DNA of 64,000 bases from an uncultured Flavobacteriaceae bacterium (GTDB lineage Bacteria > Bacteroidota > Bacteroidia > Flavobacteriales > Flavobacteriaceae). The position numbers were made by a program, and so were the translations under genes. Positions 15,878-37,000 of this stretch are shown piece after piece. Location: assembly GCA_943789305.1 (NCBI GenBank), contig CALSTP010000001.1, positions 534,178 to 598,177 on the forward strand. Reading direction: 5' to 3'. A model generated the notes under the pieces. That model was not told where the DNA came from, did no database searches, and worked only from the letters and a program-made list of their open reading frames with translations. Position 1 is the stretch's first letter. Every line of letters begins with the position of its first letter.

Positions 15878-18800
15878 TTGATTAATAAAACGCTGACATA
15901 CTATAAACACCTATTTTTAGGTGTTATTTTGATGCTCTCATTTGGGAATGCTGTTGGTCAGGTTGATTTGGAAATAAATAGAAGTCAAGTAATTATTCCT
16001 GCTCAAGGAACACCTCCTCAAATTTGTACCACCGAGACCTCTCCACTTCAATTTAGAATTGATAATATAGGTAATCTGGATTACACTGTAACTAACGCAA
16101 GTAGTATAACAGTTACCTTAACCCTTTCGGGAGGTAATACTTTTTCTCCCTCAGGATTAACAACCAAGGTCCATTCGTATAGTTCAGCTCCCTCAGTTAA
16201 AGGTGGTAGTCCACCAAATACTTTAGAGGCCACTGGAGGCTTTGCTACGTTCGATTGGCCTGCTTCTAAACCAATTATTTTTTCAAATTCTATTCAGGCG
16301 AATATTAATATTGAAATTGCAACAGGAGTTGCCTCTGATACAACACCAGCTAACAACACAACAGATTATGTAGTCGATATAGTTCCAAATCCAATTACTC
16401 CTGTTTTATCAGCTGGACCATACGGAGATGGCACTATTAATCTTTGTCAAGGAGCTCTTGTAACATTTACGGTTTTGCCAAACACCGTTGGACTTCGACA
16501 TGAATTTGATATAGCTGGAGTTATTGTTCAAAACCTTGTTAATGTAAACACTTATGCAACTTCAGCACTTGTTACCAATCAACTAATTAATGTTACCACA
16601 TACAATACTAGCAACTGTGGTGTGACTGGAAATCCAATAAGGGCTTTAGTCCATCCTGTTCCTGTGGGAACTTTGATTTCCGATAAAAGTAATGATGTTG
16701 TTTGTCCGGGAGAAGATGTATTATTTACAGCATTGGCGACTGGAGCTGCAGCGGTAAGTCCCCGGTATGAGTTTTTCTTGGATAATATTTCAGTACAATC
16801 AAGTTCTACTCAAGCGACATTTTCTTTGGGTACTGCTTCGATAACTATCGATGGTCACGTTGTTAGGGTAAGAACATGGAACAACACAGGTGCTGGTGGT
16901 CTTTGTTATGATGATGACTCAATAACACTTCGTTTAAATACCTTTTCAAGTACCAACCAAATCACCAATACAACAACAAGTGTTTGTGCTGGAGTTGATC
17001 CAGATCCATTCTCAAGTCAATCAAGTTTTTCTTCTGATCTTGGAGGGGATATTGTTCATGTTTGGGAAGAGGATATAAATGGAGATGGAAATTTCTTACC
17101 AATCACTCCCGCAGCTAACGGACTAACATACGATCCACCGGTACTCACGAGAACAACTGCATATAGACGTCTGAGTTATCCGAGATTTAATACCATTACT
17201 TGTAATTCTTCGATTGCATCCGCAACTTCAAATGTTGTTACGATAACATTCAATCCAACTTCTGTTGCAAGTTTAAGGTCAAACGCTACAACTTCCAGCA
17301 ATACTCTATGCGCAGGAGATTCATTGATTTTGAATGCTTCTTTATCTTCAGGTGCCCAAAGCTATATCTTTTACAAAAATAATCAGCCACTACCTCCTTC
17401 GGCTCCACAATCTTTAGCTACATATACTCTGATAAGTGGCGCATTTGATGATAACGACGTAATTAAAGTAAGGGCATATTCTGGTACAGGAACTGACAGT
17501 TGTTTTTCAGAGGCTCAGTTTGTAATTCGAGTAAATTCTTTTTCTGGGGGGGCGACTCCAGTTCCAGGTAATACAATTGGAAACTCATTTAGTGTATGTA
17601 AAAATGAAACTCCTTTAATCTCATTTACAAGTATATCAACACCAACTCTTCCAAATTCAATACTCACAGATGGAGCAACTATTACCTATCAATGGCAAAG
17701 TAGATCTGGTACAAATACTTTTTTGCCAATTGCATTTCCTGCAGGAAGAGGGGAATTGTATACACCTTCCTCAGTATCAACTGACACTGATTTTAGGCGT
17801 GTGGCAATAAGTACTTTCAATGGTAAAACTTGTAGTCTAATAAGTAACACAGTCCGACTTTCAGTTTCTGCTGACCCTGTAGCTTCTTTGAATGGAACTA
17901 ATACAGCATGTTTGGGCGAAGCTGTCCTTTTTACTGCTTCTGGAGGAGTACGTTATGAGTTTTTTAATGGAGGAACTAGCCTAGGAGCAAGTAGTACGGT
18001 TTCTACTATTTCGAGAACAGATTTACTTGATCTCAATTCAATAACAGTTGAAGTTACTGATGGTAATGGTTGTTCCGTGATTTCTGATCCAATTATAATG
18101 AATATTACTTCGCCACCTTCTCCTTCAATTTCTTCGGGTAGAAGTGATAATAGAGCATGTTCTGGTGATTACCCTGTATTTACTGCTGGACCTCCAGTTG
18201 CGGGTTACACATATGAATTTTTTGTAAACAATACTTTGCAAACAACTGGTGTGTCGTCAAACACTTTTGATTCTAACCTAGCTTCAACAACTGTCAATTT
18301 TTTAAACGTTAATACAATAAGAGTTCGTGTTACTAACTCTGGTTGTTCAAGTCAAACAAGTATTCCTTTCTACGTAGATGGATTAACTGGTGCTAATTCA
18401 ATATCAGCAACTCAAACAATATGTGAAGGGGCAACACCCAACACATTAATTGGTTTATCAAATCCTTTAGCAAATTCTGCAGGAGCAACAGTTAGTTATC
18501 AATGGGAAGAAAAATTAATTGGTGGTAATTTTACACCTATTTTTGCCGCTACTGGTCCAGATTTTTCTCCAGGCTCATTAACTGTATCAAGAGTATATCG
18601 TCGATTGGTATACTCGAATTTCAATGGCACCATATGCCCATCTTCTAAAGACTTAGCTGCTTCAAATTCTGTTACAATTACAGTTGATAGTAATTCAGCA
18701 CCTGTAATAAACTTTACCTCAGGACTTCAGTCTGATGTTTTGTGTGCAGGAGATTCTGTTACTTTTGATGCCTCTGGAACTACAGGCGCATCTACTTATG

Positions 18801-21800
18801 AATTTTATGTACAAAATATTAGAGTAAGGGCCGCGTTAAACTCCAATACTTTTACACCAATTCTGGGCTCTCTAAATGACAATGATATTGTAAGAGTAAG
18901 AGCCAATTCTGCCTTAGGAACAAGTTGTTTTTCAGAGCAGAGTATTACAATTAGGGTTAATGAACAAGCAAATGCAAATACAATTACAGGTTCTCAAACA
19001 GTTTGTTTTAATGGTCCGGTTTCTACATTAAATGGTTCTACTGTGACAGGAACACCAACGATAACATATCAATGGCAGAGTAGAACTAACACAGACACTT
19101 TTAGTGATATTTTTGGAGCAGTAGGAGTTAATTATACTCCCTCAGGTTTATCCTCAACAACAGCTTTTCGTCGTAATGTTTTATCCACATTAAGTTCAAA
19201 GACTTGTGTAATTTCAAGCGGTGTAGTTACTGTTACAGTTAGTCCAGGGGCCACCCCTGTTGCTAGACTTGTAACTACAAGCAATATCGGATGTGGAGGT
19301 TCTACCCCTCCCATGGCATCAAGGAGTGACTTTATTTTTGATGCAAGTTCAAGTACAAACGACCTAAGTTATGAGTTTTTTGTGGGTGGTGCCTCTCAAG
19401 GTCCAGCATCTAGTGTTTCAACTATTTCCCTTACACTAACTGATAGTCAAACAGTTCGTGTAGATGTTTACCCGTTTGCTAATGGTGCTGGGTGTCCAAA
19501 TAGTACTTCTATCACTGTTAGAGTTAATTCAATTATAGGAGATAATATTATTGGTGGAACAGATTTAATATGTGAGAATGATGACGCTTCAGCACTAAAC
19601 TCTGTGAGTACACCTACATCCACCACTGGTACTTTAACTTATCAATGGCAAGTAAGGTCTGGTACAAATACTTTTACAAATATTAGCCCTGGTGGAAATG
19701 GAATAGATTACGATCCTAGTAACTTATCAACCACAACTTTCTACAGAAGACTTGCCGTAAGTACAATTGGTGGATTGGCTTGTTCAGTTCCCAGTAATGT
19801 TGTAACCATAACCGTAGATTCTTCTCCAATTATTACAGGAGTTCTAACATCAGATGCCCAAACTATTTGTATTGGAAATACTCCTAATACTCAAACAGTT
19901 TCTTTCACCGTATCAGCAGCAGCATCTAGTATTGTTTTTTATATTAACAATAGTGCTGTTCAAACAAGTACTTCGAGAACTTACACCGCTTCACAATCAA
20001 TTTTTTCAGAAGGTGATGTTGTGACAACCAGACTTATAAACAGTGCAGGATGTTTTAGCGAGCAAAATTTAATTATCAATGTGAATAACATAGCTCCGGG
20101 AAGTATTAGTGGTTCACAAGCTGTTTGTGCTGGTTCGACTCCTATACCATTTACATCAGTTAGTTCTGGCGTAATTAATGGAGTAACTGTTGTTTCTCCT
20201 GGCACGGGTAGTTATCAATGGCAAACTTCTACAGACACTTTTAATTGGATTGACATACGATTTGCCACCTCCGATACATACTCACCTGCAGCTGCTCCAC
20301 CAGCCACAATACACTACAGACGATTAACGATTAATACCCTTAATGGTTTTGAATGTAAAATTCCATCTAACAGTATAACAGTTAGTGTGGACGCACTACC
20401 TAATCCTGGCTTGACTGCAAATGGTGGTGCGTTTACTGCACCTGCAACGATAACCTCTTGTGCTAGTAATACCATAAGTTTTATTGCCTCTGGTGGTACT
20501 GAATATCAATTTTTTGTAAATAATATATCGGCTCAATCTCGAGATACTTCCTCTACCTTTTTAGCTTTAAATCCCTCTGATAGTGATGAAGTATTTGTTC
20601 GAGTGTACAAAACTGCTTTAGCAAGTTCTTGTTTTGCGGATTCAGGAATAATTAAAGTTGATCTTGAAGCACCACCTGTTGCGAGTATTTCCCCATCCGT
20701 TTCTAATCGCGTCTTTTGTTCAGGTACTGATGTATTATTTACAGCCGATTCGGGAGGAGTAGCATCAGCAACATATGAGTTTAAAGTTAACAATACCATT
20801 ATACAAACCTTTAGTACAACTAATACTTTCAATTCTGGGGATTACCCATCTCTTACTCTAGTTGGGAATCCTTTTATTGAAGTTACCGTAAGATCTCCTT
20901 CTGGATGTTCTAATATTGCTAGTGTAACTTTAATTGAAAATGCGATATCTTCAGTTGGAACCCTAACTTCATCAACCGCAACAGTCTGCCTTAACCAAAT
21001 TCCAGATCCTATTGTTGGCTCTACTGCCGTTGCCTCTGGAAGCATTACCTATGGCTGGCAGTCCTCGTCTGATGGAATTTTATATAGCCTAATTGGTGGA
21101 GCAACATCTACAACTTACACGCCAACTACAGGTTTAATATCGACTACTTTTTATCAAAGAGTAACCTACAGTGAAATTAATTCTGTTACCTGTTCATCAA
21201 CTTCAACACCTTTTAGAGTTTCAATTTCACCTGCTCCGATCCCCAACTTGATAGCTAGCCCCGGAGCTCTAACTGCCCCCGCAACATTAACCTTATGTGA
21301 TAATACAGGTGTTGGAATTTTTAATGCATCTGGAGGAGCAAGTTATGAATTTAGAGATGAGAACGGAATTGTATTACAAGCCAGATCTACAACCAGTACC
21401 TTTTCAGCAACCACTTCATCAACTTTATTGGATAATAGTCAGGTAATAGTTCGTGTATTTTCTAATGTGACAGGTGGATGTTTTGAAGATTCAAACCCCA
21501 TTATAATTCAAGTTTCTCCTCAACCTACAGTAAGTCTTAACACAATTGGAGGACTAACTACCTTCTGTACAGGAGATGTTGTAACAATGACAGCAACTTC
21601 TACTATTGCGGGTAGTAATTTTGAATTTAGAATAAACGGAGCTGAGATACAAAACGGAGCCTCCAACACCTATAGTCGAACGATAGATGCTTCTATACCA
21701 CCTATATTAGCAACTGGAAATTATATTGTAACAGTTGCAGTAACGAGTCCAGGTGGATGTACTGTAACAGATACTTTAACTTTATTTGAGAACAACATAC

Positions 21801-22081
21801 CAATACCTGCAGGATTAACTACAGCGAGTGCAACGATTTGTTCAGGACAAGTTCCACAGCCAATAGTAGGAGCAGCAGCAGTAGCTTCAGGAACAACAGT
21901 TGATTATGTTTGGATGCGTTCTACAGATGGTGGAGTTACTTATAATACTATAGGAGGCGCAGCCAATGCAGCCACTTATACTCCGACCTCAGCAATTGTC
22001 ACAACAACTTTTTATCGTCGAGATATAGTAAGTACGCTTGAACAGTTTCATGTACACTTGAAGGTGGACCAATCCAAGTAG
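15878..22081 (+). CDS. Giant SprB-like Ig-repeat surface adhesin, N-terminal part (frameshifted at 22039/22040; continues in the next frame to 38175)
   Basis: TTG start, signal peptide MINKTLTYYKHLFLGVILMLSFGNAVGQ, tandem Ig-like modules (YQWQ..., ASGG..YEFFVNG...); the last ~14 codons are out of frame relative to three internal repeat copies. Confidence 0.88.
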   Translation: MINKTLTYYKHLFLGVILMLSFGNAVGQVDLEINRSQVIIPAQGTPPQICTTETSPLQFRIDNIGNLDYTVTNASSITVTLTLSGGNTFSPSGLTTKVHSYSSAPSVKGGSPPNTLEATGGFATFDWPASKPIIFSNSIQANINIEIATGVASDTTPANNTTDYVVDIVPNPITPVLSAGPYGDGTINLCQGALVTFTVLPNTVGLRHEFDIAGVIVQNLVNVNTYATSALVTNQLINVTTYNTSNCGVTGNPIRALVHPVPVGTLISDKSNDVVCPGEDVLFTALATGAAAVSPRYEFFLDNISVQSSSTQATFSLGTASITIDGHVVRVRTWNNTGAGGLCYDDDSITLRLNTFSSTNQITNTTTSVCAGVDPDPFSSQSSFSSDLGGDIVHVWEEDINGDGNFLPITPAANGLTYDPPVLTRTTAYRRLSYPRFNTITCNSSIASATSNVVTITFNPTSVASLRSNATTSSNTLCAGDSLILNASLSSGAQSYIFYKNNQPLPPSAPQSLATYTLISGAFDDNDVIKVRAYSGTGTDSCFSEAQFVIRVNSFSGGATPVPGNTIGNSFSVCKNETPLISFTSISTPTLPNSILTDGATITYQWQSRSGTNTFLPIAFPAGRGELYTPSSVSTDTDFRRVAISTFNGKTCSLISNTVRLSVSADPVASLNGTNTACLGEAVLFTASGGVRYEFFNGGTSLGASSTVSTISRTDLLDLNSITVEVTDGNGCSVISDPIIMNITSPPSPSISSGRSDNRACSGDYPVFTAGPPVAGYTYEFFVNNTLQTTGVSSNTFDSNLASTTVNFLNVNTIRVRVTNSGCSSQTSIPFYVDGLTGANSISATQTICEGATPNTLIGLSNPLANSAGATVSYQWEEKLIGGNFTPIFAATGPDFSPGSLTVSRVYRRLVYSNFNGTICPSSKDLAASNSVTITVDSNSAPVINFTSGLQSDVLCAGDSVTFDASGTTGASTYEFYVQNIRVRAALNSNTFTPILGSLNDNDIVRVRANSALGTSCFSEQSITIRVNEQANANTITGSQTVCFNGPVSTLNGSTVTGTPTITYQWQSRTNTDTFSDIFGAVGVNYTPSGLSSTTAFRRNVLSTLSSKTCVISSGVVTVTVSPGATPVARLVTTSNIGCGGSTPPMASRSDFIFDASSSTNDLSYEFFVGGASQGPASSVSTISLTLTDSQTVRVDVYPFANGAGCPNSTSITVRVNSIIGDNIIGGTDLICENDDASALNSVSTPTSTTGTLTYQWQVRSGTNTFTNISPGGNGIDYDPSNLSTTTFYRRLAVSTIGGLACSVPSNVVTITVDSSPIITGVLTSDAQTICIGNTPNTQTVSFTVSAAASSIVFYINNSAVQTSTSRTYTASQSIFSEGDVVTTRLINSAGCFSEQNLIINVNNIAPGSISGSQAVCAGSTPIPFTSVSSGVINGVTVVSPGTGSYQWQTSTDTFNWIDIRFATSDTYSPAAAPPATIHYRRLTINTLNGFECKIPSNSITVSVDALPNPGLTANGGAFTAPATITSCASNTISFIASGGTEYQFFVNNISAQSRDTSSTFLALNPSDSDEVFVRVYKTALASSCFADSGIIKVDLEAPPVASISPSVSNRVFCSGTDVLFTADSGGVASATYEFKVNNTIIQTFSTTNTFNSGDYPSLTLVGNPFIEVTVRSPSGCSNIASVTLIENAISSVGTLTSSTATVCLNQIPDPIVGSTAVASGSITYGWQSSSDGILYSLIGGATSTTYTPTTGLISTTFYQRVTYSEINSVTCSSTSTPFRVSISPAPIPNLIASPGALTAPATLTLCDNTGVGIFNASGGASYEFRDENGIVLQARSTTSTFSATTSSTLLDNSQVIVRVFSNVTGGCFEDSNPIIIQVSPQPTVSLNTIGGLTTFCTGDVVTMTATSTIAGSNFEFRINGAEIQNGASNTYSRTIDASIPPILATGNYIVTVAVTSPGGCTVTDTLTLFENNIPIPAGLTTASATICSGQVPQPIVGAAAVASGTTVDYVWMRSTDGGVTYNTIGGAANAATYTPTSAIVTTTFYRRDIVSTLEQFHVHLKVDQSK

Positions 22082-25051
22082 CAGTTGCAGCCCCTCCAAC
22101 ACCTGGACTAACAGGAACAGCTATATCAGGAACAAGGACAGCATCTGACACTTTAGTTATTTGTCCAGGAGAGTTAGTTAATTTCCAAGCAACAGGAGGA
22201 GCTACTTATAGGTTCATTGGTCAAGGAGGAGTTACTTTACAAAGCAGATCAGCATCGAGTACTTTCAGTACAAATACATTAAACAACTTAAATACTGTTC
22301 AGGTAGAGGTATTCAATGCAGGAGGGTGTTCAAGTTTTTCAGACCTAATTACCATAAATATTGGACCAGGAAGTGGAGCACCAAATTTACAGACTACTAA
22401 TAGCACACTTAACAACACCTTCTGTACAGGAGATGTTGTAACAATGACAGCAACTTCTACCATCGCGGGTAGTAATTTTGAATTTAGAATAAACGGAGCT
22501 GAGATACAAAACGGTCTCTCCAACACCTATAGTCGAACGATAGACGCCTCTATACCACCTATATTACCAACTGGAAACTATATTGTAACAGTTGCAGTAA
22601 CGAGTCCAGGAGGATGTACTGTAACAGATACTTTAACTTTATTTGAGAACAACATACCAATACCTGCAGGATTAACTACAGCGAGTGCAACGATTTGTTC
22701 AGGACAAGTTCCACAGCCAATAGTAGGAGCAGCAGCAGTAGCTTCAGGAACAACAGTTGATTATGTTTGGATGCGTTCTACAGATGGTGGAGTTACTTAT
22801 AATACTATAGGAGGCGCAGCCAATGCAGCCACTTATACTCCGACCTCAGCAATTGTCACAACAACTTTTTATCGTCGAGATATAGTAAGTACACTTAGAA
22901 CAGTTTCATGTACACTTGAAGGTGGACCAATCCAAGTAGCAGTTGCAGCCCCTCCAACACCTGGACTAACAGGAACAGCTATATCAGGAACAAGGACAGC
23001 ATCTGACACTTTAGTTATTTGTCCAGGAGAGTTAGTTAATTTCCAAGCAACAGGAGGAGCTACTTATAGGTTCATTGGTCAAGGAGGAGTTACTTTACAA
23101 AGCAGATCAGCATCGAGTACTTTCAGTACAAATACATTAAACAACTTAAATACTGTTCAGGTAGAGGTATTCAATGCAGGAGGGTGTTCAAGTTTTTCAG
23201 ACCTAATTACCATAAATATTGGACCAGGAAGTGGAGCACCAAATTTACAGACTACTAATAGCACACTTAACAACACCTTCTGTACAGGAGATGTTGTAAC
23301 AATGACAGCAACTTCTACCATCGCGGGTAGTAATTTTGAATTTAGAATAAACGGAGCTGAGATACAAAACGGTCTCTCCAACACCTATAGTCGAACGATA
23401 GACGCCTCTATACCACCTATATTACCAACTGGAAACTATATTGTAACAGTTGCAGTAACGAGTCCAGGAGGATGTACTGTAACAGATACTTTAACTTTAT
23501 TTGAGAACAACATACCAATACCTGCAGGATTAACTACAGCGAGTGCAACGATTTGTTCAGGACAAGTTCCACAGCCAATAGTAGGAGCAGCAGCAGTAGC
23601 TTCAGGAACAACAGTTGATTATGTTTGGATGCGTTCTACAGATGGTGGAGTTACTTATAATACTATAGGAGGCGCAGCCAATGCAGCCACTTATACTCCG
23701 ACCTCAGCAATTGTCACAACAACTTTTTATCGTCGAGATATAGTAAGTACACTTAGAACAGTTTCATGTACACTTGAAGGTGGACCAATCCAAGTAGCAG
23801 TTGCAGCCCCTCCAACACCTGGACTAACAGGAACAGCTATATCAGGAACAAGGACAGCATCTGACACTTTAGTTATTTGTCCAGGAGAGTTAGTTAATTT
23901 CCAAGCAACAGGAGGAGCTACTTATAGGTTCATTGGTCAAGGAGGAGTTACTTTACAAAGCAGATCAGCATCGAGTACTTTCAGTACAAATACATTAAAC
24001 AACTTAAATACTGTTCAGGTAGAGGTATTCAATGCAGGAGGGTGTTCAAGTTTTTCAGACCTAATTACCATAAATATTGGACCAGGAAGTGGAGCACCAA
24101 ATTTACAGACTACTAATAGCACACTTAACAACACCTTCTGTACAGGAGATGTTGTAACAATGACAGCAACTTCTACTATTGCGGGTAGTAATTTTGAATT
24201 TAGAATAAACGGAGCTGAGATACAAAACGGTCTCTCCAACACCTATAGTCGAACGATAGACGCCTCTATACCACCTATATTACCAACTGGAAACTATATT
24301 GTAACAGTTGCAGTAACGAGTCCAGGAGGATGTACTGTAACAGATACTTTAACTTTATTTGAGAACAACATACCAATACCTGCAGGATTAACTACAGCGA
24401 GTGCAACGATTTGTTCAGGACAAGTTCCACAGCCAATAGTAGGAGCAGCAGCAGTAGCTTCAGGAACAACAGTTGATTATGTTTGGATGCGTTCTACAGA
24501 TGGTGGAGTTACTTATAATACTATAGGAGGCGCAGCCAATGCAGCCACTTATACTCCGACCTCAGCAATTGTCACAACAACTTTTTATCGTCGAGATATA
24601 GTAAGTACACTTAGAACAGTTTCATGTACACTTGAAGGTGGACCAATCCAAGTAGCAGTTGCAGCCCCTCCAACACCTGGACTAACAGGAACAGCTATAT
24701 CAGGAACAAGGACAGCATCTGACACTTTAGTTATTTGTCCAGGAGAGTTAGTTAATTTCCAAGCAACAGGAGGAGCTACTTATAGGTTCATTGGTCAAGG
24801 AGGAGTTACTTTACAAAGCAGATCAGCATCGAGTACTTTCAGTACAAATACATTAAACAACTTAAATACTGTTCAGGTAGAGGTATTCAATGCAGGAGGG
24901 TGTTCAAGTTTTTCAGACCTAATTACCATAAATATTGGACCAGGAAGTGGAGCACCAAATTTACAGACTACTGCTAGTACACTTAATAATACCTTCTGTA
25001 CAGGAGATGTTGTAACAATGACAGCAACTTCTACTATTGCGGGTAGTAATT
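21561..25051 (+). repeat. Tandem 858-bp (286-codon) repeat, ~4 copies: 21561-22417 (857 bp), 22418-23275, 23276-24133, 24134-24991, plus partial 24992-25051
   Basis: Anchor ccttctgtacaggagatg occurs at 21561, 22418, 23276, 24134 and 24992; copies 2-4 look almost identical at nucleotide level. Confidence 0.97.
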
Positions 25052-28000
25052 TTAGGTTTTCTGTTAATGGATCAATTCAACAAAATTTCTCAGTTGCAAA
25101 TACTTTTATTCCAATCCTTAACACTCCTGATGCAGTAACAGGTAATTATGTTGTGCTTGTAGAAGTGAATAGTCCAGGGGGATGTACTGTAACAGATACT
25201 TTAACTTTATTTGAAAATGTAATATCCTCAGTCGGAACTCTAACTACGGCAAGTTCAACGATTTGTTCAGGAGAGGTTCCACAACCAATAATAGGAACTT
25301 CAACAGTGGCCTCAGGTTCAATTAGTTATCAATGGGAGGAATCTTTTGATAATATAACGTATACTCCTATATTGGGTGCAGCAAATGCAGCTACTTATAC
25401 CCCTACAGTAGCACCATTATTATCAGCAACAAGAATTTTCTATAAAAGAATTACTACAAGTATACGAAGGGGTACTGCATGTACTGTCGAAACAGCACCC
25501 GTGTTAATAACAATTTCTTCACCTACACCTAGTTTAATAGCTGACCCTGGAAATATATCTGCTACTGGAACATTTACTATGTGTGAAGGAAGTGAAGCCA
25601 GATTCACAGCTGCAGGAGGATTGAGTTATGAATTTTATGTTAATGGTATAAAAAGAGGTGCAAGATCAAATCAATCAACTTTCACAATTTCAAGTCTTAC
25701 TAATTCACCATCACTTAGAAATAATGAAAGAGTCCGAGTACTTGTTTTTGATCAACTCACTGGGGCAGGTGGTTGTTCGGCTTTTTCTGATGAAATTATT
25801 GTTAGAACAATTGCTGTTCCAACGGTTAATTTAACACGAAGCGATACAACAGGATCAATTTTTTGTACAGGAGATGAACCATCTTTTACAGCAAGTAGTA
25901 GCTTATCATCAGCAACATATGAGTTTTACATCGGACCAACACCTTGGCAAAATTCTACATCCACGGTATTCACACCTATACAGTCCCTCTATGTTCCTTT
26001 TTTAACAGACGGAGATGTGATTAGTGTTGTTGTAAATGCTTCTGGAGTATCTGGTTGTAGTGCGACGGATTCAATTACAATGGTTGAAAATGCTTTTACA
26101 GTATCAGGACTTATTACTAACGCAAGCCCAATGATATGTAGTGGTGGTACTCCAAGTGTATTTACTAATGTTGCTTCAGCTTCAGGAACAGGTAGCATAA
26201 CTTATCGATGGCAAAGTGGATTATCAACAGCAACATTTATTGACATAGTTCCTTTTGTGACAACAGCAACATTTACACCAACCACGAGTTTAACAACACA
26301 TACTCTTTTCAGAAGAAGAGCGATAAGTACAATAGGTGTTGATGAATGTGAAAGTTTCAGTAATACAATAGAAATTAGAATTTCACCACCCTTAGATGGA
26401 GGTCTAATAAGCCCTGCTTTAATGGAAATTTGCACTGGGGATTCACCAGGTGCTTTATCTGTTACAGGTGGTTCAATAGGTCCCTTAATGACATATGAAT
26501 GGCAGATCTCATCCGATGGATTGATATTTACTGCTATTACTAGTGCAACTGGTCAAACATATACCCCATCTTCATTAAATACGACCACTTTTTATAAACG
26601 CATAGTTAATCTTAATGGAGGCGGTCCACCAGCAAGTTGTACTGCAGAAAGTTCAATTATACGAATTAACATCGTAGATCTTAACCCCGGATCGTTAGAT
26701 GAAAGAGTAGAACAAGCATATTGTTTTGGAACTATGCCACCTACTTTGACTAGTTCAATAACAGGTGGAGTTCAACAAGATGCATTTAGCAGTGTAGGAA
26801 CCATTTCTTATCAATGGCAGGAGTCTCTAAATGACGGAACATGGACTAATATTCCCTCAGCAACTCAGAATTATTATAATCCTCCCTCTTTAATACAGAC
26901 TACTTTTTTTCGTCGTATTGCAATCAGCACAACAATAAGTAATGTATGCACAGATTTTACTGAATCTTTAAGAATTGAGATTATTGATGATCTTGATGCG
27001 GGAACAATTTTACCGGCAGATCAAAATATTTGTTCAATTCTTACAGCGGCTGATTTACCTAGATCACTTGTTTTAACATCACCAGAAACCCAAACCACTT
27101 CGGTTACATATCAATGGCAACAATCATTGGATAAATCTGTATGGTTTGATATCCCCGGTCAGCAAAATCTGAATCTAAACTTTAGCTTAGGTTTAGATGG
27201 AGTAGCTGGAACTCCTGATGATGACTCCTGGTTACCATCATCTACATCAACTTCAACTTATTATCGTGTTGTAACAACCTATGTTGGAAATCCTAAACCC
27301 TTCGCCCAAGAACAGGTTAGGATTTTGTTAACGGATCAACCAAGGGTTATGGCAGTTGGAGAATATATGATCTCTGTTAATGGTGATAATCATGCTATTA
27401 ACACCACGCTAACGAGTACTTTAGATCAAATAGGTTCTGATTTAGCAGCTAAAATAACCTCGGATGATCCTATTGTTAATGCAGCTTACAACTCAACTAC
27501 TAATATTATCACTCTTCAGCCAATTATCCCAGGTACTTATAATGTTGCCTCTTCAATTTTGTTAACAGACGATACAATTGCCCTAAGTTTTCCTGATAAC
27601 CCACCTATATTTATGACAATATTGGTGTCTGGAAATACAGGAACTCGAACACCAAATGCAGGTTTAGATTCTTGCCAAATCTACTCAAGTATTGCTGAAA
27701 TTAGTTCAGAACCGCAACCTGAATTTATTTTGGTGAGTGGAATAGTTTCTCCACAACAAGTTTGTCGAGGAGACCTTATTATTCCTATTCAATATACATA
27801 TACAAGTAATGTAGATGAAATACAAATCAGAAATCTCGACCCTGGATTAATTCCAACCATATCAGGAGCTGGAACCGTTGTTGGTCCTTTTGATGTTGGA
27901 GGTCTAGGAATAGCTGGATGGTACAGAATAACTAATTCAGCTTCAAGAACATTCTCCATCACAGGTTCTGTGACTAATTCATCAAACTTTAGCATGGTAA

Positions 28001-31000
28001 CTATTTTAGATCCATTAAGTCAATGTAATCCAATTACTGAGACATACGTGATTCAAGTAACACCTAATGCAGTTCAACCAAATTTCATCAGAAAGGGTCA
28101 GAATTTACCAGGATATGAAGTTTTATCATCCCAGATGAGTTCTATTGCTTCAATAACAGCTATTACACCTGTTCGTTGGTATAATAATACTGTTTGTCAA
28201 GACAGACTTCCAGCACCAACAACAGAGTGGACAGATTTTTACGCCTGTTATTCCGACAACACATTTAATCAACTATCCAATTCGTACGAGTGGGAAGTGT
28301 CACCCCCTGAGGCTGGAAATATGACCAATAATAATTTTCAAGAAACCACAATTCAACTTAATACGTTGGCAGCTCCCGCACTAGGTGAAAATTATACTGT
28401 ATCCATTACAACTGTAGCTTCAGGAACCACAGCATATACAACCACCTCAACATTAGCAATTCAAACTACTGACGAAATAGGAATTGATTTAGCAAGTAAA
28501 ATTTCCCTTGATTCAGCAGTAGATGCTATATATAATAATGTTATTGATCAAATTATTATAGAAGCAGCAACACCTAACTTATCTTTTACCACAACAGTTT
28601 CCCCGCTTGCAATTGGTCAATCTACTCAATTTAGTATACCAAGTATTAGACAAATTATTAGAAGTGGAACGATGCAATGGAATCCTTCTTTTACAGGATC
28701 TTCTACTATCAGAGTTCGTTCAATTGGTTGTGGTAGTAATGTGTCTTCATGGACCTCAGTAGTAATTGATGTAATTCCAGAAACCGTTCCAATTAATCCA
28801 GCTTCAGATCTTTATCCACCTGTAGTTATTGACGCAGGTATTTGTAGTGGAGCAACTACAGGAATTGTACCTTTATGTCAGGTAGATGCCTTTACTTTAC
28901 CTACGCAGTTTTTTACTGCTAGTGATAATGCAGCTAATGTTAACGATTACGGTTCTCTTGAATGGAGAATGGAGAATATTGCTCCTGGTTCATTAACTGT
29001 AGCTACTCCAGGTACGATTGATCAAGCAACTGGAATAATAACTTGGAATATTGGATGGTGGGGAACTTTTGATCTTCAAGTGCGCCCTGTTGATTGTGAT
29101 GGAGGCTTTGGAGTCTGGTCAACATCAACCATCAGTATTGGTCCAACCAATGGACCTGTTACGGATGTTACTCCTATATCAGCTTTACCAGAATGTCCAA
29201 TTCCCGATAGTGGATTCTCTACTACATTGAGATCCAGTCAGGAAGTAAATTGGTATGTAAATAGTCGTCTTGGGCTAGTAAGCTCAACTACATTTATCAA
29301 TACGGTGACTTTTCAATTGACTCCTCTACCGAATAACGACTTGTTCTTGGACTTTGAACCTGGATTTTCGGGGAATATAATCATTACTGCTGAGCCTGCT
29401 CTTTGTCCAGGATCAACAGTAAATTACGTAATAAATATTCCAGATCCACCTACAATTGTTTTAACATCTGGTTTCAATTCTAACCTTTTAATAGGTCCAG
29501 ATTCAATTTGCAGAAATACAGCTATCAATACAATCACTTATCAGATAGAAGGAGCTGCAGACGCAGTAACTGTTACAGGTCTTCCTACTGGAGTTATCCC
29601 AGTTTTAGATATTACTCCACAGTCTACTTCATTGAATTTATCAAATACAGGTACAGCTTTTAGTGCTGGACAAATTTATTCGATTCAAATCAATAATAAT
29701 ACTTACAACTTTGTTACTACAGGACCAGGAAATGACATTGATACTGTTGGTGAAGGATTACGAGATGATATCAATTTAAGAACTACAAATTTTGTAGCAA
29801 CGTATGCCTCCCCTTTATTGTCTATAGAGCCCAGTGGGACTGGTAAAAGAGGTGACTCTTTTATTATAGCGCCATCAACACCAGTAGGAAATTCCGTTGA
29901 TATTGATCCGCCTTTGACTACTCCATTACAAAAAATATTAACCATTTCAGGAACACCATTAAATAGTGTTCCACCAGGTCAATATCCCTATATCATAACA
30001 ACACTAGCTCCCGCTGCTAATTGTGCAGTTGTTAGTGCCACTGGTATTATTGAAATTGAAGAATCTGCTTCAATTACAATAGTTAATGGAATTGCAAATA
30101 ATACAGGTGCAAATTCAATATGTAACGGTGCATCCTATACCCCACCAGCATCTTTATTGACTCTTGATATTATCAATGCATTTAACTTAAGAGTAGATCC
30201 TCTTACTCCACTGCCTAATGGACTTGCATTGTCATTATCAGCTAGTGGTACAGCAAACCAGTTTGAAATAACGGGGCAAATTAGTGAGTCCGTCTTTGTT
30301 CCGACAACTTTTGTTGTTAATCTCGTCACTACAGGTGCAAACTGTGAGGATGCAGTTTTACAAATTTCAATCGAAGTTGAACCTAATCCAACTATAGACC
30401 CTGCAGTTGGAGCCAATCTTGATCCATTTGTATGTTCATCAGAGCCATTAGTCCCAATTCGATTTGAAGTATTTAATCCTGCATTTGGATTAGGCGAAAC
30501 AGTATCTAGCACATTCCCTCCAGGTGTTGACGGGAGACTTTACCAACAAATTCAGGTATCTCAATTCACAGTTGACTTTTTACTTGGAGCTGGAGATACA
30601 ACAGCTGTAAGTGACACTTTTGTCTTTAACATTAACAATATCCCTTACACATACGCAACACCCAATACATCAACAAATATTCAATTGGCAGCTGAAATTA
30701 ACACGTTTTTAACTGCACAATTACCGGCTACTCAATTTACGGTACTTTACACTGCTGGAACAAATGTAATTCAGATTCAACATGTAAATGCGGGAATAGC
30801 ATTTAATGTAATATCATCGGATTCTGCTACTTTCTTGGATATAAGCGAAACTCAAATTATTACTCCACCATCTTATTATGAGATTTCGGGTACACCTTCG
30901 GTTACCCTTGGTGCTCCTACACCATATGTATACGAATTAACAACCTCCGGGCCCAATTGTACGGGTAGTACTTCTGTGAGTGGAACAATAACCGTACAAC

Positions 31001-34000
31001 CCAGCACTTCTGCAAGTTATCTATCTGGTGTTCTAAATCAAGTTATTTGTGATAACGAAACCATGACCGATATCGTTTATTCAACGGTAGGGGCAGTAGC
31101 AATAGCAATTGTTACACCAACAACTCCATCTTGGATAGATGTTGATTTTGATCCAATAACACAGCAGATAACAATTTCAACTCCGGCAGCTCCAAATCAA
31201 AATGTTACTACAACTACGGTTTATAATTATCAAATTAATTTACAAGGAAGCTTGTTTGGTTGTAACACTGTTCCATCTCCAATATCAGGTACAGTTACCA
31301 TATCACCATTAGATCAAATTTCACATATCATAACCTCTGGTGCAGAAAATCAATCGATTTGTGTGGGTGGTAATCCTGCTATACCTTTTGCAATTGATCC
31401 TATCGAATATCAACTATCAGGAGGAGCAACGGGAGCTACAGTTACTGGACTTCCGCCAGGAATTACTCCAACCTTCACAGCCTTAAATAGACTTATCCTT
31501 TCTGGAACAGCAACGGCAATCCCCTCACCGACCTTTACATACAACTATCAAATAATAACAACCCCTGCAGGTTGCGTATCGGCGACTGCGTCAGGTTCCA
31601 TAACTGTATTCTCACAACCAGAATTAACATTAGTAACCACAGCAACTACTGCAAATCAAGTTGGTGCAAATGCAATATGTGACGCTCAGCCAATAGAAAC
31701 CATAATTTACGAGCACAGTACAACTACTCCTGTCACAACTCAAGTGAATTTCACCTGGGTCGGTTCAAATACACTCTTTGGATTTGGAGTAACTGCTTTA
31801 TCATCTGGAACAAACCAATTTGTGATTTCTGGAACACCAACGACCAACGTGACAGAAACAACTGTATACAATTATCAAATTGAAACAGTGGGAAGTAATT
31901 GTGAGCCTGAGGTTGTTTTGACGGGAAGTATTCAGATAAATCCAAACCAAACCATTGACCTTATTTCACCTGTCAATTCCGATAATCAAACGGTTTGTGT
32001 AAACGATCAAGATAATCCAGCAACTGCAAATACATCAAGTTTTGTTTCTATAGAGTATCAATTGGTTGGTGGAGCAACTAATTACAATATTATAGGATTG
32101 CCACCCGGTTTAACACACAACAGAACAATTTCAAATACAGTTTTAATCGATGGATTTATCGATTCTTCAGCAACCACAATAGCTTCGCCAACTGTAATTT
32201 ATAATTATATAATTACAACTACCGGAACATGTTCAGATACTCAAGCTTTAGGTGTGATAGAAGTTCACTCTTTACCAACTTTGAGTTTAACAAGTTCGGT
32301 AACCTCAGCAGATCAAACTGGAATCAATGCGATATGTGATGGTACTCCAATGGAAACTATTATTTATGAAATGGGTGGTGGGGCAACACTAATGGACTTC
32401 ACATGGGTAGGTTCAAATACGCTGTCATTTGCTGGTTCAGGATTTGTTCAAACCAATACAGGAACCCAAATTATTCTTTCTGGAACACCAACGACCAATG
32501 TAACTCAAACTACTTACTACAACTACCAAGTTGAAACTCTTGGAAGTAATTGTATTCCTGAAATTGTGTTGACAGGAAGTATTCAAATAAATCCAAATCA
32601 AACGATAACCCTTGTGTCATCGCCAACATCAGACAATCAAGTGGTTTGTGTCAGAGACAATAATAATCCATTGGAACCAGAGACTTCTAATTTTGTTCCA
32701 ATAGTATACGAATTAGGAGGAGGAGCTACAGGAGCAATTGTAACAGGCCTTCCAGATGGAATTTCACCATCGACAACTGCTACAGCTATTATTATTAATG
32801 GCCAGCCATCGTCTTTAGCCACATCACTAGTTTCTCCTACAATTATTTACAACTATACGGTTACTACATTTGGTGGCTGTACTACTTCCACAATTAATGG
32901 TTCTATAGAAGTTCAATCTCTTCCAACCTTAACCCTAGTATCGACTGCAACAACTGCAAATCAGACAGGATTTGGAGGAGCAGTTTGTGTTAATCAAGAC
33001 ATAGTGCCAATTATCTATGAATATGGAGGAGGAGCTGAAGGGATAACCTTCAATTGGACTTCCCCTGCAAATGTTGCTCCTGTAACATCATTATCGCAGG
33101 TCTACTCAGGAACACAATTTATTATTTCTGGAAGACCAAGCCCGTCCGCTACTTTAACCACAACAACAATTTTTGAATATGAAATTGTAACACGTGATAG
33201 TAATTGTTTGCCTGAAATAACTCTTACCGGTAGAATTGAAGTTAAACCAGAGGATGCACTTGAATTAATCTCCGGAGTTGGATCAGATTTCCCAACAGTT
33301 TGTGTTGGAGGTCTTCCAACATCAGAGAGTCTTACCGATATTGTTTATGAATTGAAGAACGGAGCTGAGAGTGCCATAGTAACGGGCTTACCTCCTGGAA
33401 TATCTTACACGGTAACTACATCGAAAACGATTGTCATATCAGGAACAGCTCAGGCATCAGCATCACTATCCTCGACAACTCTAACTCCTTGGATTTATAC
33501 TGTAACTACAATTGGTTGTTCTCCAGTTGTTGCAAATGGAACCATAACAGTTACTCCTAAACCTGAATTAATTTTAATAGCTGGAACCGCAGTACAAACT
33601 CCTGTTTGTAATTTGACACCTATCATAGATGCACAATATATTTATAATCCTGCAGCAGGAGGACCACCAGTGGTAACCTGGCCAAATGGTCAACCTAACG
33701 GTGTAAATGTATCTTCTGGAGGATTTACAGATCGATTAACAATAGGAGGTATACCCTCGGTTGTAATTACCAGAACCACAATATATCCATATGAAGTTAC
33801 TTTTTCTGGTACTTGTTCTCCCTCTGTCGTCCTTCGAGGAAGTATAGGAGTTATTCCAACACCTGTGATCGATTCAAATTACATTCTTACAAATGATGTA
33901 ACTAATGTTAGCTGTTTTGATGCATCAGATGGATCAATTATAATTCCAGATGAAGCCTCACTTGGATTTAGTAATCGTATAACTGGTGGAATGTTGAGTA

Positions 34001-37000
34001 TCCAACAAATCGATGAAATCTCTATATCAGGTACAACGACCATAGGCGATATAATTCGAGTTACTGCAGCAGGAAACACCTTTGAATATATTGTAAAAGC
34101 TGACCCTTATGGAAGTGCCATACCCGAATCTCTAGCAGTGGTTAACAATCTTGTTGCTAAGGTGATTAATGATGGAGTCGTAACCTCTGGCCCAGTGATT
34201 GAACCCTATGTATCTGCAACACCAATAGCAGGAGGAATTTCATTACAAGCAGACGTAGGAGGTATTCCGCTAAATACTTCAGTGGATATTACTCAAACTA
34301 CAAGTTTAAGTAGTGCTATAACTACTATTCAAGAAAATAGAGCATTAAATTATAATTTCTCATGGCAAGGTCCAGATGGATATACAAGTTCAAGCCTTAG
34401 TATCTTTAATCTTAAGGCAGGAGATTATGTACTTACCGTTGATCTGAATGGTTGTTCTGATCAATCTGAAGTAATAACAATAACAGAACCAGCTGAACTA
34501 AAAGTAGGCGTTAATCTTTGCTCAGGGTCTGCACAAGTGAGTGTAACCGGTGGTACACCTCCTTATACCTTTATTTTGGAAGATGATAATGGAGCACAGA
34601 TTGGAGCACCTATAGTGAAGCCGGGGGAGCATACTTATACAGGACTCGCCATTGGTGATGACTACATCGTTGAAGTTACCGATCAGTCATGTACGGTAGC
34701 AGTTCGTGAAGCTTTCAGAGTTCCAACTTCATTAAGTTTTAATCATTGGGATCTAAACGAAGGAGTTACTAACAGTTATTGTGCAACTGGAACCATTGGA
34801 AATGGTAGTATTGAGTTGACTCGAGGTACTGGCGCTACATTTCAAAGCGCATTTTCTGGAGGATCAAATGTTTTCTCATACAAATGGCAAAGCTCTTCCT
34901 CTTCTGGGACAATTGGAGTAAGCCCTAATATTTATAATCTACCTCCAGATGTATATACTGTAACAGTTACGGACTTAATTTTGGGTTGTTCTGACACACG
35001 TTCGTTTACTGTGGGTGGATTCCCTGTTCTAGAGCTAAATGCAGTTGTTGTAGGATTCCTAATAGATAACTCTACTGGTGTTGCTTCAAGTACTGCAGAC
35101 TATGTTTACAATTTGGCATGTAATGGTGATACTGATGCTAACTTCACTTTAATAGCAAGTGGTGGAAATAGTAATTATACCATTACTCCAGTTGTTCCAG
35201 TTGTTTCTACTATAAGTAATATTGGAGGTACAATACTTGTTGATGACGGAGGACCTGGTCTTTATACTTTCAATTTACAAGATACAGGTCCAAATGGAGA
35301 TATTTGTTCGGTGATAAAAACAGTTGAGGTAATTAACCCTGACCCAATGTTCCTTGTTGAAAATACAGGAAATAGAAATAATCCTATTTGTAATGGAGAC
35401 TTTGGTTTGGTTGAGTTTAACGTAGTTGGTGGATCACCAAACAGAGGACCATACAGGGTTACCTTAAACGGAGGTGCTCTAGTTAAGAGCTCTTTAACAC
35501 CAGGTGATAGAAGAGTAGTGTTTGACAATATTGATACTTCTTTAATTAGTTCCATAGCTACTAATGTTTTAATAGAGGATGCATTTGGATGTTCAGTGAC
35601 AACACAACTTTCGTCTCAAATAGTTTTTAATGTTATTCCAGATCTACAGTTTGAATCAGATGTAATAGATATTGATTGTTCTGTTCCAACTGATGGAAGT
35701 GTAACTTTTAGAGAAGTTGGGCCTGATACATTTGCAGATCCTCAACAAGTTCAGATTCGAGTTTATCTAGCTTCAAATGGAACCAATATTTTCAAAGCTT
35801 GGGGGGCAAATCCTAATGAATCAGTTTCAATACCATTGACTGGTCTGGGGATATATAATTATAATATTACCGATGGTAATGGATGTCTTTTGACACCCAC
35901 ACCTGATCCTACTTTTGAAGTTAAAGTAATTGGAAACGATAATCCACTTAATATTGGTTGGGATGTTACACCGGTTGGTTGTGGAAATGACACCAGTAGA
36001 ATTGTTTTAAATATTGAAAATATAGTACCACCATTAAGTATTTCATGGTTTGAAAAGAAACCGGTAGTAACGACAATTAGCTCAACAACTGGTGGAATTA
36101 CGACATCAACTGATACAACAAATATCGAATTTGTACTTATTCCTTCTTTGGATGGTAATGCTACAGTATCTGATTTACCAGAAGGTGTTTATCGAGCAGA
36201 AGTGTCAGATGCCCGCTCACAAAACTGTGGAGGGACTGTAGCTACTGTTCCCCCAATTATTCTTCAGGAAAGTTCAATTGAAGTTGTGAATTTCAAAACA
36301 ATTGAAAATGAACCAGCTCTTTGTGATAATTATGGAAACGCATTTACCTCTGACGTAAGTTTTAGAATTAATGCAAACTTGAACAGAGGTTCAATTTCAA
36401 GTAGTTTTAATATTTCCTTATTATCTCAGAACACTGGAGCTGTAATTCCAATACCTGCAGCTATGGATATAAATGGTGATGGAATAGTTGATCCAAAACC
36501 TAGAGGTTATACCTATCGATACCCTCTATTACCTGCTGACAGTTATACTCTGACTATTGAAGAAAGACTTCCACCAACTCTTCCTGCAACTAGTACCCTA
36601 GTCGCGTGCTCAGAAATATATTTCTTTGAAATTTTAGACTATTTACCAATAGAATATACCGGGGATACTGTAGGAATTACAACAGATCTTTGTACAGGAC
36701 TTGGAACAATTATAGGTGATGCTGTTGGTGGTGTACCATTTACTGACACTGGATTACCAACTTACTCATGGTTATGGACTTTCACTCCACAAGATACCTC
36801 AAGGGGAGTAGAAACTTTCAATTCTAAAGATATTCTTAATGCCGAGCCTGGTAGCTATTGTGTAAAAATAACAGATTCAAATGGATGTACTTATGATTCC
36901 TGTGATACTGCTGCAGGTGCTACCCCAATAGACATAGAGATTGAAGACAAAGTTACACCATTTAGTATCACAGGTAATCTCACAGATCCTGATGATTCAA

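Follow-up and report, generated by a model that had tools for sequence, protein, structure and literature searches.

A module nested in the repeats of a giant SprB-like surface protein of Flavobacteriaceae is a probable relative of the phage tail sheath side domain

The window analysed here, a 64,000-nucleotide stretch of DNA from an uncultured Flavobacteriaceae bacterium, carries on its + strand an open reading frame of 5243 aa (P0001, 22444-38175) that encodes an SprB-like giant surface protein and contains all five copies of the module described below. An upstream frame on the + strand (15878-22081) is very likely the 5' portion of this gene with a one-base shift in frame, since both frames lie within one tandem array of 858-bp units whose first unit is one base short. 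This unit of 286 aa, made up of Ig-like domains, is present in four copies at 21560-25500 that are 97-100% identical where compared, and the short first unit, which breaks the frame, may reflect an assembly error, a real frameshift or phase variation. In relatives the giant gene is a single frame of 6.5-8.4 kaa. By eye, the start of the upstream frame (15878-15965) encodes a likely signal peptide (LINKTLTYYKHLFLGVILMLSFGNAVGQ), which fits the 5' end of this giant gene.

Directly downstream of the 5243-aa frame lies a PorP/SprF-type shuttle gene (38176-39192, + strand; PF11751 at 3e-20, TIGR03519 over its cut-off), and SprA and GldM are encoded in the same genome. A type-B substrate of the type IX secretion system (T9SS) in F. 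johnsoniae usually has an SprF-like shuttle gene directly downstream (PMC12618676), and because of this gene order, the adjacent SprF-type gene and the presence of SprA and GldM, we read the giant gene as most likely that of an SprB-like T9SS adhesin, on the basis of gene order and architecture. It shares with the Flavobacterium T9SS adhesins of type B, SprB among them, its giant repeat organization, the PorP/SprF gene directly downstream and repeats of SprB type, which score 19.4 bits in the 5243-aa frame against a Pfam cut-off of 28. The last 343 aa look CTD-like by eye and gave no NCBIfam match at E<=0.01; as the model of the type-B CTD (TIGR04131) found no match there, we label the protein SprB-like rather than SprB. 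What sets it apart from the known adhesins are nested inserts of phage sheath type, which are unreported for SprB in the literature searched.

A preliminary description of this DNA had proposed that one divergent module of about 70-100 aa recurs at five places in this frame. The recurrence is borne out by a profile of the five modules (A2), which at E<=10 found exactly these five places in the whole genome of origin (E 3e-28 to 2e-21). A2 was trained on the same five modules, so that leave-one-out searches weigh more; profiles from the other four positions recovered M1 (best E 2e-13), M2 (4e-8), M3 (3e-12) and M4 (4e-5) at the right place. With M5 fully left out the match is weak (0.07-1 with the listed copies, at best 0.0025 with those from other species), and M5 is tied to the set by the iterated profile and by its relatives. 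The five places had been located correctly and the extent underestimated: when aligned with its flanks, the full module measures 97-110 aa and reaches one β-strand beyond the earlier pattern at each end, the first strand ('QQIDEISIS', 'QEQVRILL' and others) and the last strand being absent from that pattern.

All five modules are encoded on the + strand and were found by profile search and iteration, M1 to M4 also by leave-one-out. M1 (27307-27600, aa 1622-1719) lies inside a CHU/Ig-like repeat that with the insert spans approximately 27025-27729 (aa 1528-1762), and M2 (28336-28644, aa 1965-2067) inside a PKD/Ig-like unit (YEWEVSPPEAG...SGTMQWNPSFTG) placed approximately, by eye, at 28282-28785. 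M3 (29617-29919, aa 2392-2492), for which structural models were also made, interrupts an Ig-like repeat of the GLPPG...ISGTP kind (29503-30060, aa 2354-2539), and M4 (30550-30864, aa 2703-2807) occupies the same host position in a repeat of the same kind (30421-31005, aa 2660-2854). M5 (34003-34332, aa 3854-3963) falls between ...RITGG and NYNFSW... of an SprB-type repeat whose approximate extent is 33895-34491.

The earlier proposal that the module interrupts repeats rather than replacing them holds firmly for M3, M4 and M5, is supported for M1 and for M2 amounts to a likeness seen by eye. A host HMM built from nine Ig-like repeats without insert, of the family that hosts M3 and M4 (31012-33864, + strand), aligned to the M3 host at positions 13 to ~50 and 51-94, and to the M4 host at positions 11 to ~50 and 51-96, on either side of the module; as the split falls at ~50/51 in both, M3 and M4 are inserted in the same host loop. 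Removal of M5 raised the SprB-repeat score at its site from 17.2 to 22.2 bits, both under the cut-off of 28. At the M1 site the Ig unit is uninterrupted in one congeneric genome (G012), through loss, replacement or as the original state, and the continuity of the M2 host was judged from the likeness of a neighbouring unit. Beyond the genus, another genus of the same family (G590, L086) has an SprB-type repeat interrupted at the position that corresponds to M5, and an RTX-like repeat is interrupted by the module in two genomes of a Chlorobium-like group (G319 and G271). Given these nested copies and the tandem rows of modules in a further genome of that group (G255), nesting is common, not obligatory. 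Another reading is that the supposed insert consists of normal strands of the host's own Ig/PKD domain, and the host is indeed beta-rich and divergent. That reading is refuted, and we give it almost no weight: profile-profile comparison (hhalign) of modules with host repeats gave a probability of 0.2%, the host HMM covers a whole repeat without the insert and is split by it, and the module contains a 15-residue helix. Judged from its sequence, the module does not belong to the Ig/PKD host.

The preliminary description recognized no named family, and in direct comparisons this stands: scans of single modules against Pfam, NCBIfam and PHROG gave chance-level scatter only, no stand-alone family of Pfam or NCBIfam was matched over threshold, and direct search yielded no Pfam, NCBIfam or PDB name for the module. 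It gives way at the level of profiles, where the modules emerge as relatives of the side domain nested in phage tail sheath proteins, identity and nesting together being, in our judgement, quite probable. Profile-profile comparison with sheath domains gave a probability of 93.7% (E 2e-7) for A3, a profile of modules of the window's genus only, and 97.1% (E 8e-11) for A4, built from a mixed set, against 0.3% for a control that compared sheath domains with host repeats. Among thirteen sheath genes taken by similarity to the 7-7-1 and phi92 sheaths, eleven matched at residues ~82-198 with up to 28.7 bits, the best of 1300 shuffled sequences reaching 8.2; two had no match, one of them that of Barba14S, which lacks the region. 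This 358-aa sheath of a Rheinheimera phage (L082), devoid of the side domain, is apparently a natural minimal version. The genus-only profile found the sheath as its sole match in the phi92 genome (148 kb; E 0.0014), the tail sheath family phrog_165 was matched in 10 of 22 module members, and a locus search with the 7-7-1 sheath returned only its own phage.

In the SfII sheath the corresponding region carries the Pfam name Phage_sheath_domII (PF17481). The modules do not reach the cut-off of this family (31.4), the best score in nine genomes, 16.4 bits, lying away from them; nor do they share its location in a contractile sheath protein, their host being a repeat adhesin and their own genome having no phrog_165 sheath match. 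The relationship is one of superfamily, by profile homology to sheath domains at a common region. The side or insertion domain is represented by PF17481 in SfII-type sheaths, by InD of Vibrio phage XM1, whose sheath was described as bearing an insertion domain (PMC10457771), and by the lateral domain of Adele, PhiTE and Sf14. Common to these and our modules are a length of ~90-100 aa, seven strands plus a helix, nesting in another domain and profile homology (PMC10457771, PMC12846349), whereas here the host is a giant T9SS-type surface protein with five copies in unlike hosts. The seven-strand-plus-helix domain has been described (PMC12846349) in sheaths and nozzles, in auxiliary capsid proteins and in FliD and flagellin, and a crAss capsid protein also has it as an insertion domain (PMC10172136).

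Structure prediction agrees with this assignment. The AlphaFold2 model of M3 alone, with a moderate mean pLDDT of 76, has seven strands and one helix (E4-10, E20-25, E28-33, H41-55, E59-64, E67-72, E84-87, E92-97), and in the model of host plus M3 suggested by the preliminary description mean pLDDT rises to 83, mostly 88-97 across the module. The predicted fold is the seven-stranded beta-sandwich with one flanking helix of the sheath side domain. Among PDB folds Foldseek ranked tail sheaths best (those of cyanophage A-1(L), of PhiTE, of Milano and of 7-7-1), then T7-type nozzles and FliD, and the BFVD search agreed. The match to sheath 8kee has E 4e-4 and TM 0.69, and T7-type nozzles reach TM ~0.68; FliD 5h5v gave E 0.04 and TM 0.40-0.52 with the module alone, and E 1.4e-3 with the host. 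The T7-type nozzle domain (tail tubular protein B) shares the fold and weak PF25675 matches (0.0038), the nozzle host being a tail propeller protein. FliD was not detected by sequence HMM, and Flagellin_IN (PF07196), near which the FliD and flagellin D2-D3 domains stand, was absent from the genome of origin, its best match among the module members being 0.047 in one member only; the relation to D2-D3 thus appears, from the models, to be one of fold only.

Identity between module and sheath domains is only about 14-22%, and FliD appears to have the same fold with no detectable sequence likeness, so the resemblance could be convergent, both having arrived without shared ancestry at a common small fold of beta-sandwich plus helix. 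We regard this as unlikely in view of the profile-profile E-values, which contrast with 0.2-0.3 for controls, the common region matched in most of the sheaths and the sheath being the sole match in phi92. Far less plausible still is a reading of the module as a calcium-stabilised, Ig-like RTX adhesin repeat (MpAFP_RII, Ca_tandemer type): 4p99 (MpAFP Ig repeats) matched at E 1.8e-5 with biased composition and NF033510 in two members (best 0.01), but these matches rest on a 'GDTVTLTINGxTYTTTV' hairpin of high bias (9-19 bits per stretch) and leave the helix unmatched, and sheaths rank first in the fold search. When A3 was compared with PDB sequences, an anti-CRISPR (0.006) and RTX adhesins were returned; we disbelieved these matches as short, hairpin-only or biased.

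The insert recurs in relatives: its sites are kept in up to nine congeneric genomes, all five in several, with M1 absent from G012. Wider searches found few further carriers. A3 matched 7 of 300 genomes of the phylum, the genome of origin included and one being likely chance (an outer-membrane-efflux-like protein in G150, L045, taken as such); A4 matched 5 of 398 genomes of the order and 6 of 99 of the Chlorobium-like class, a name that reflects our reading of a separate class of the same phylum with giant ORFs. This sparse distribution fits lateral spread or frequent loss, and also a limited reach of the profiles. In that distant Bacteroidota class the module likewise occurs in giant ORFs, and one of 15,320 aa (G255, contig C35, L057-L059) has at least 14 copies, many in tandem rows. 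A tree of 82 modules places M1, M2 and M3 together (92/85), divides M5 into two groups and interleaves phage with Chlorobium-like copies; its columns are too few to settle origins, and hence we claim no direction of transfer. The two M5 groups (G000, G016, G009, G012 and G014 against G013, G005, G010, G015 and G017) are of low resolution and perhaps reflect replacement at one site.

The recurrence of the module, the conservation of its sites, its nesting, its profile homology to sheath domains and its predicted fold are computed results. We read the five segments as instances of a single folded domain, predicted to be a seven-stranded beta-sandwich with one alpha-helix, that is homologous to the phage sheath side ('insertion') domain and probably shares its fold with the nozzle domain and with D2-D3 of FliD and flagellin. 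Every copy is placed in a loop that joins two strands of its host repeat, Ig-like or of SprB type, which is otherwise complete, so that the repeat stalk would continue past the insert and the module most likely projects sideways as a knob from the stalk of a giant SprB-like adhesin. Secretion and display of this adhesin by the type IX system are suggested by the SprF-type shuttle, SprA and GldM.

Proposals for phage sheaths include both adhesion and stabilisation (PMC9230969). We tentatively favour for the modules a putative role as auxiliary contact domains on the stalk, mediating weak adhesion to polysaccharide or to neighbouring filaments, a role to which we attach a little less than even confidence. 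Its main rival, possible and somewhat less probable, is that the same domain serves as a passive spacer or stabiliser that makes the stalk stiffer or wider, or protects it from proteases, and has no ligand of its own. Phage sheath side domains have been called non-essential and outside contraction (PMC9230969, PMC12846349), in line with a spacer; the retention of five sites across the genus, however, is more than neutral filler needs. The modules diverge faster than their host flanks in 20 of 24 comparisons, which favours a spacer yet also fits a ligand-facing surface, the surface being exposed, engaged in contacts or merely less constrained.

A literature search of partial coverage found no paper that places a sheath-type domain in an adhesin, and the domain seems to be previously undescribed in bacterial adhesins. 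A domain known in phage tails, in capsid decorations of phages and in flagellar caps would thereby appear in a new class of hosts, the giant surface proteins of Bacteroidota, nested as it is elsewhere. Within these mostly unannotated proteins the module is a testable unit, and profile A4 offers a means of finding further cases. Should the domain bind a ligand, adhesin knobs could be tested side by side with phage side domains of unknown role. More speculatively, and with only a modest chance of being right, phage tails and the giant adhesins of bacteria may have swapped a single mobile side domain, which would have entered unrelated repeat loops several times and would do the same job of weak lateral contact with cell-surface polymers in both; were this true, the adhesin copies could reveal what the phage copies bind. 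In the genome of origin (G000, contig C2, 95860-96138; L106), another ORF, of 6085 aa, has a very weak Phage_sheath_domII score of 11.6 bits.
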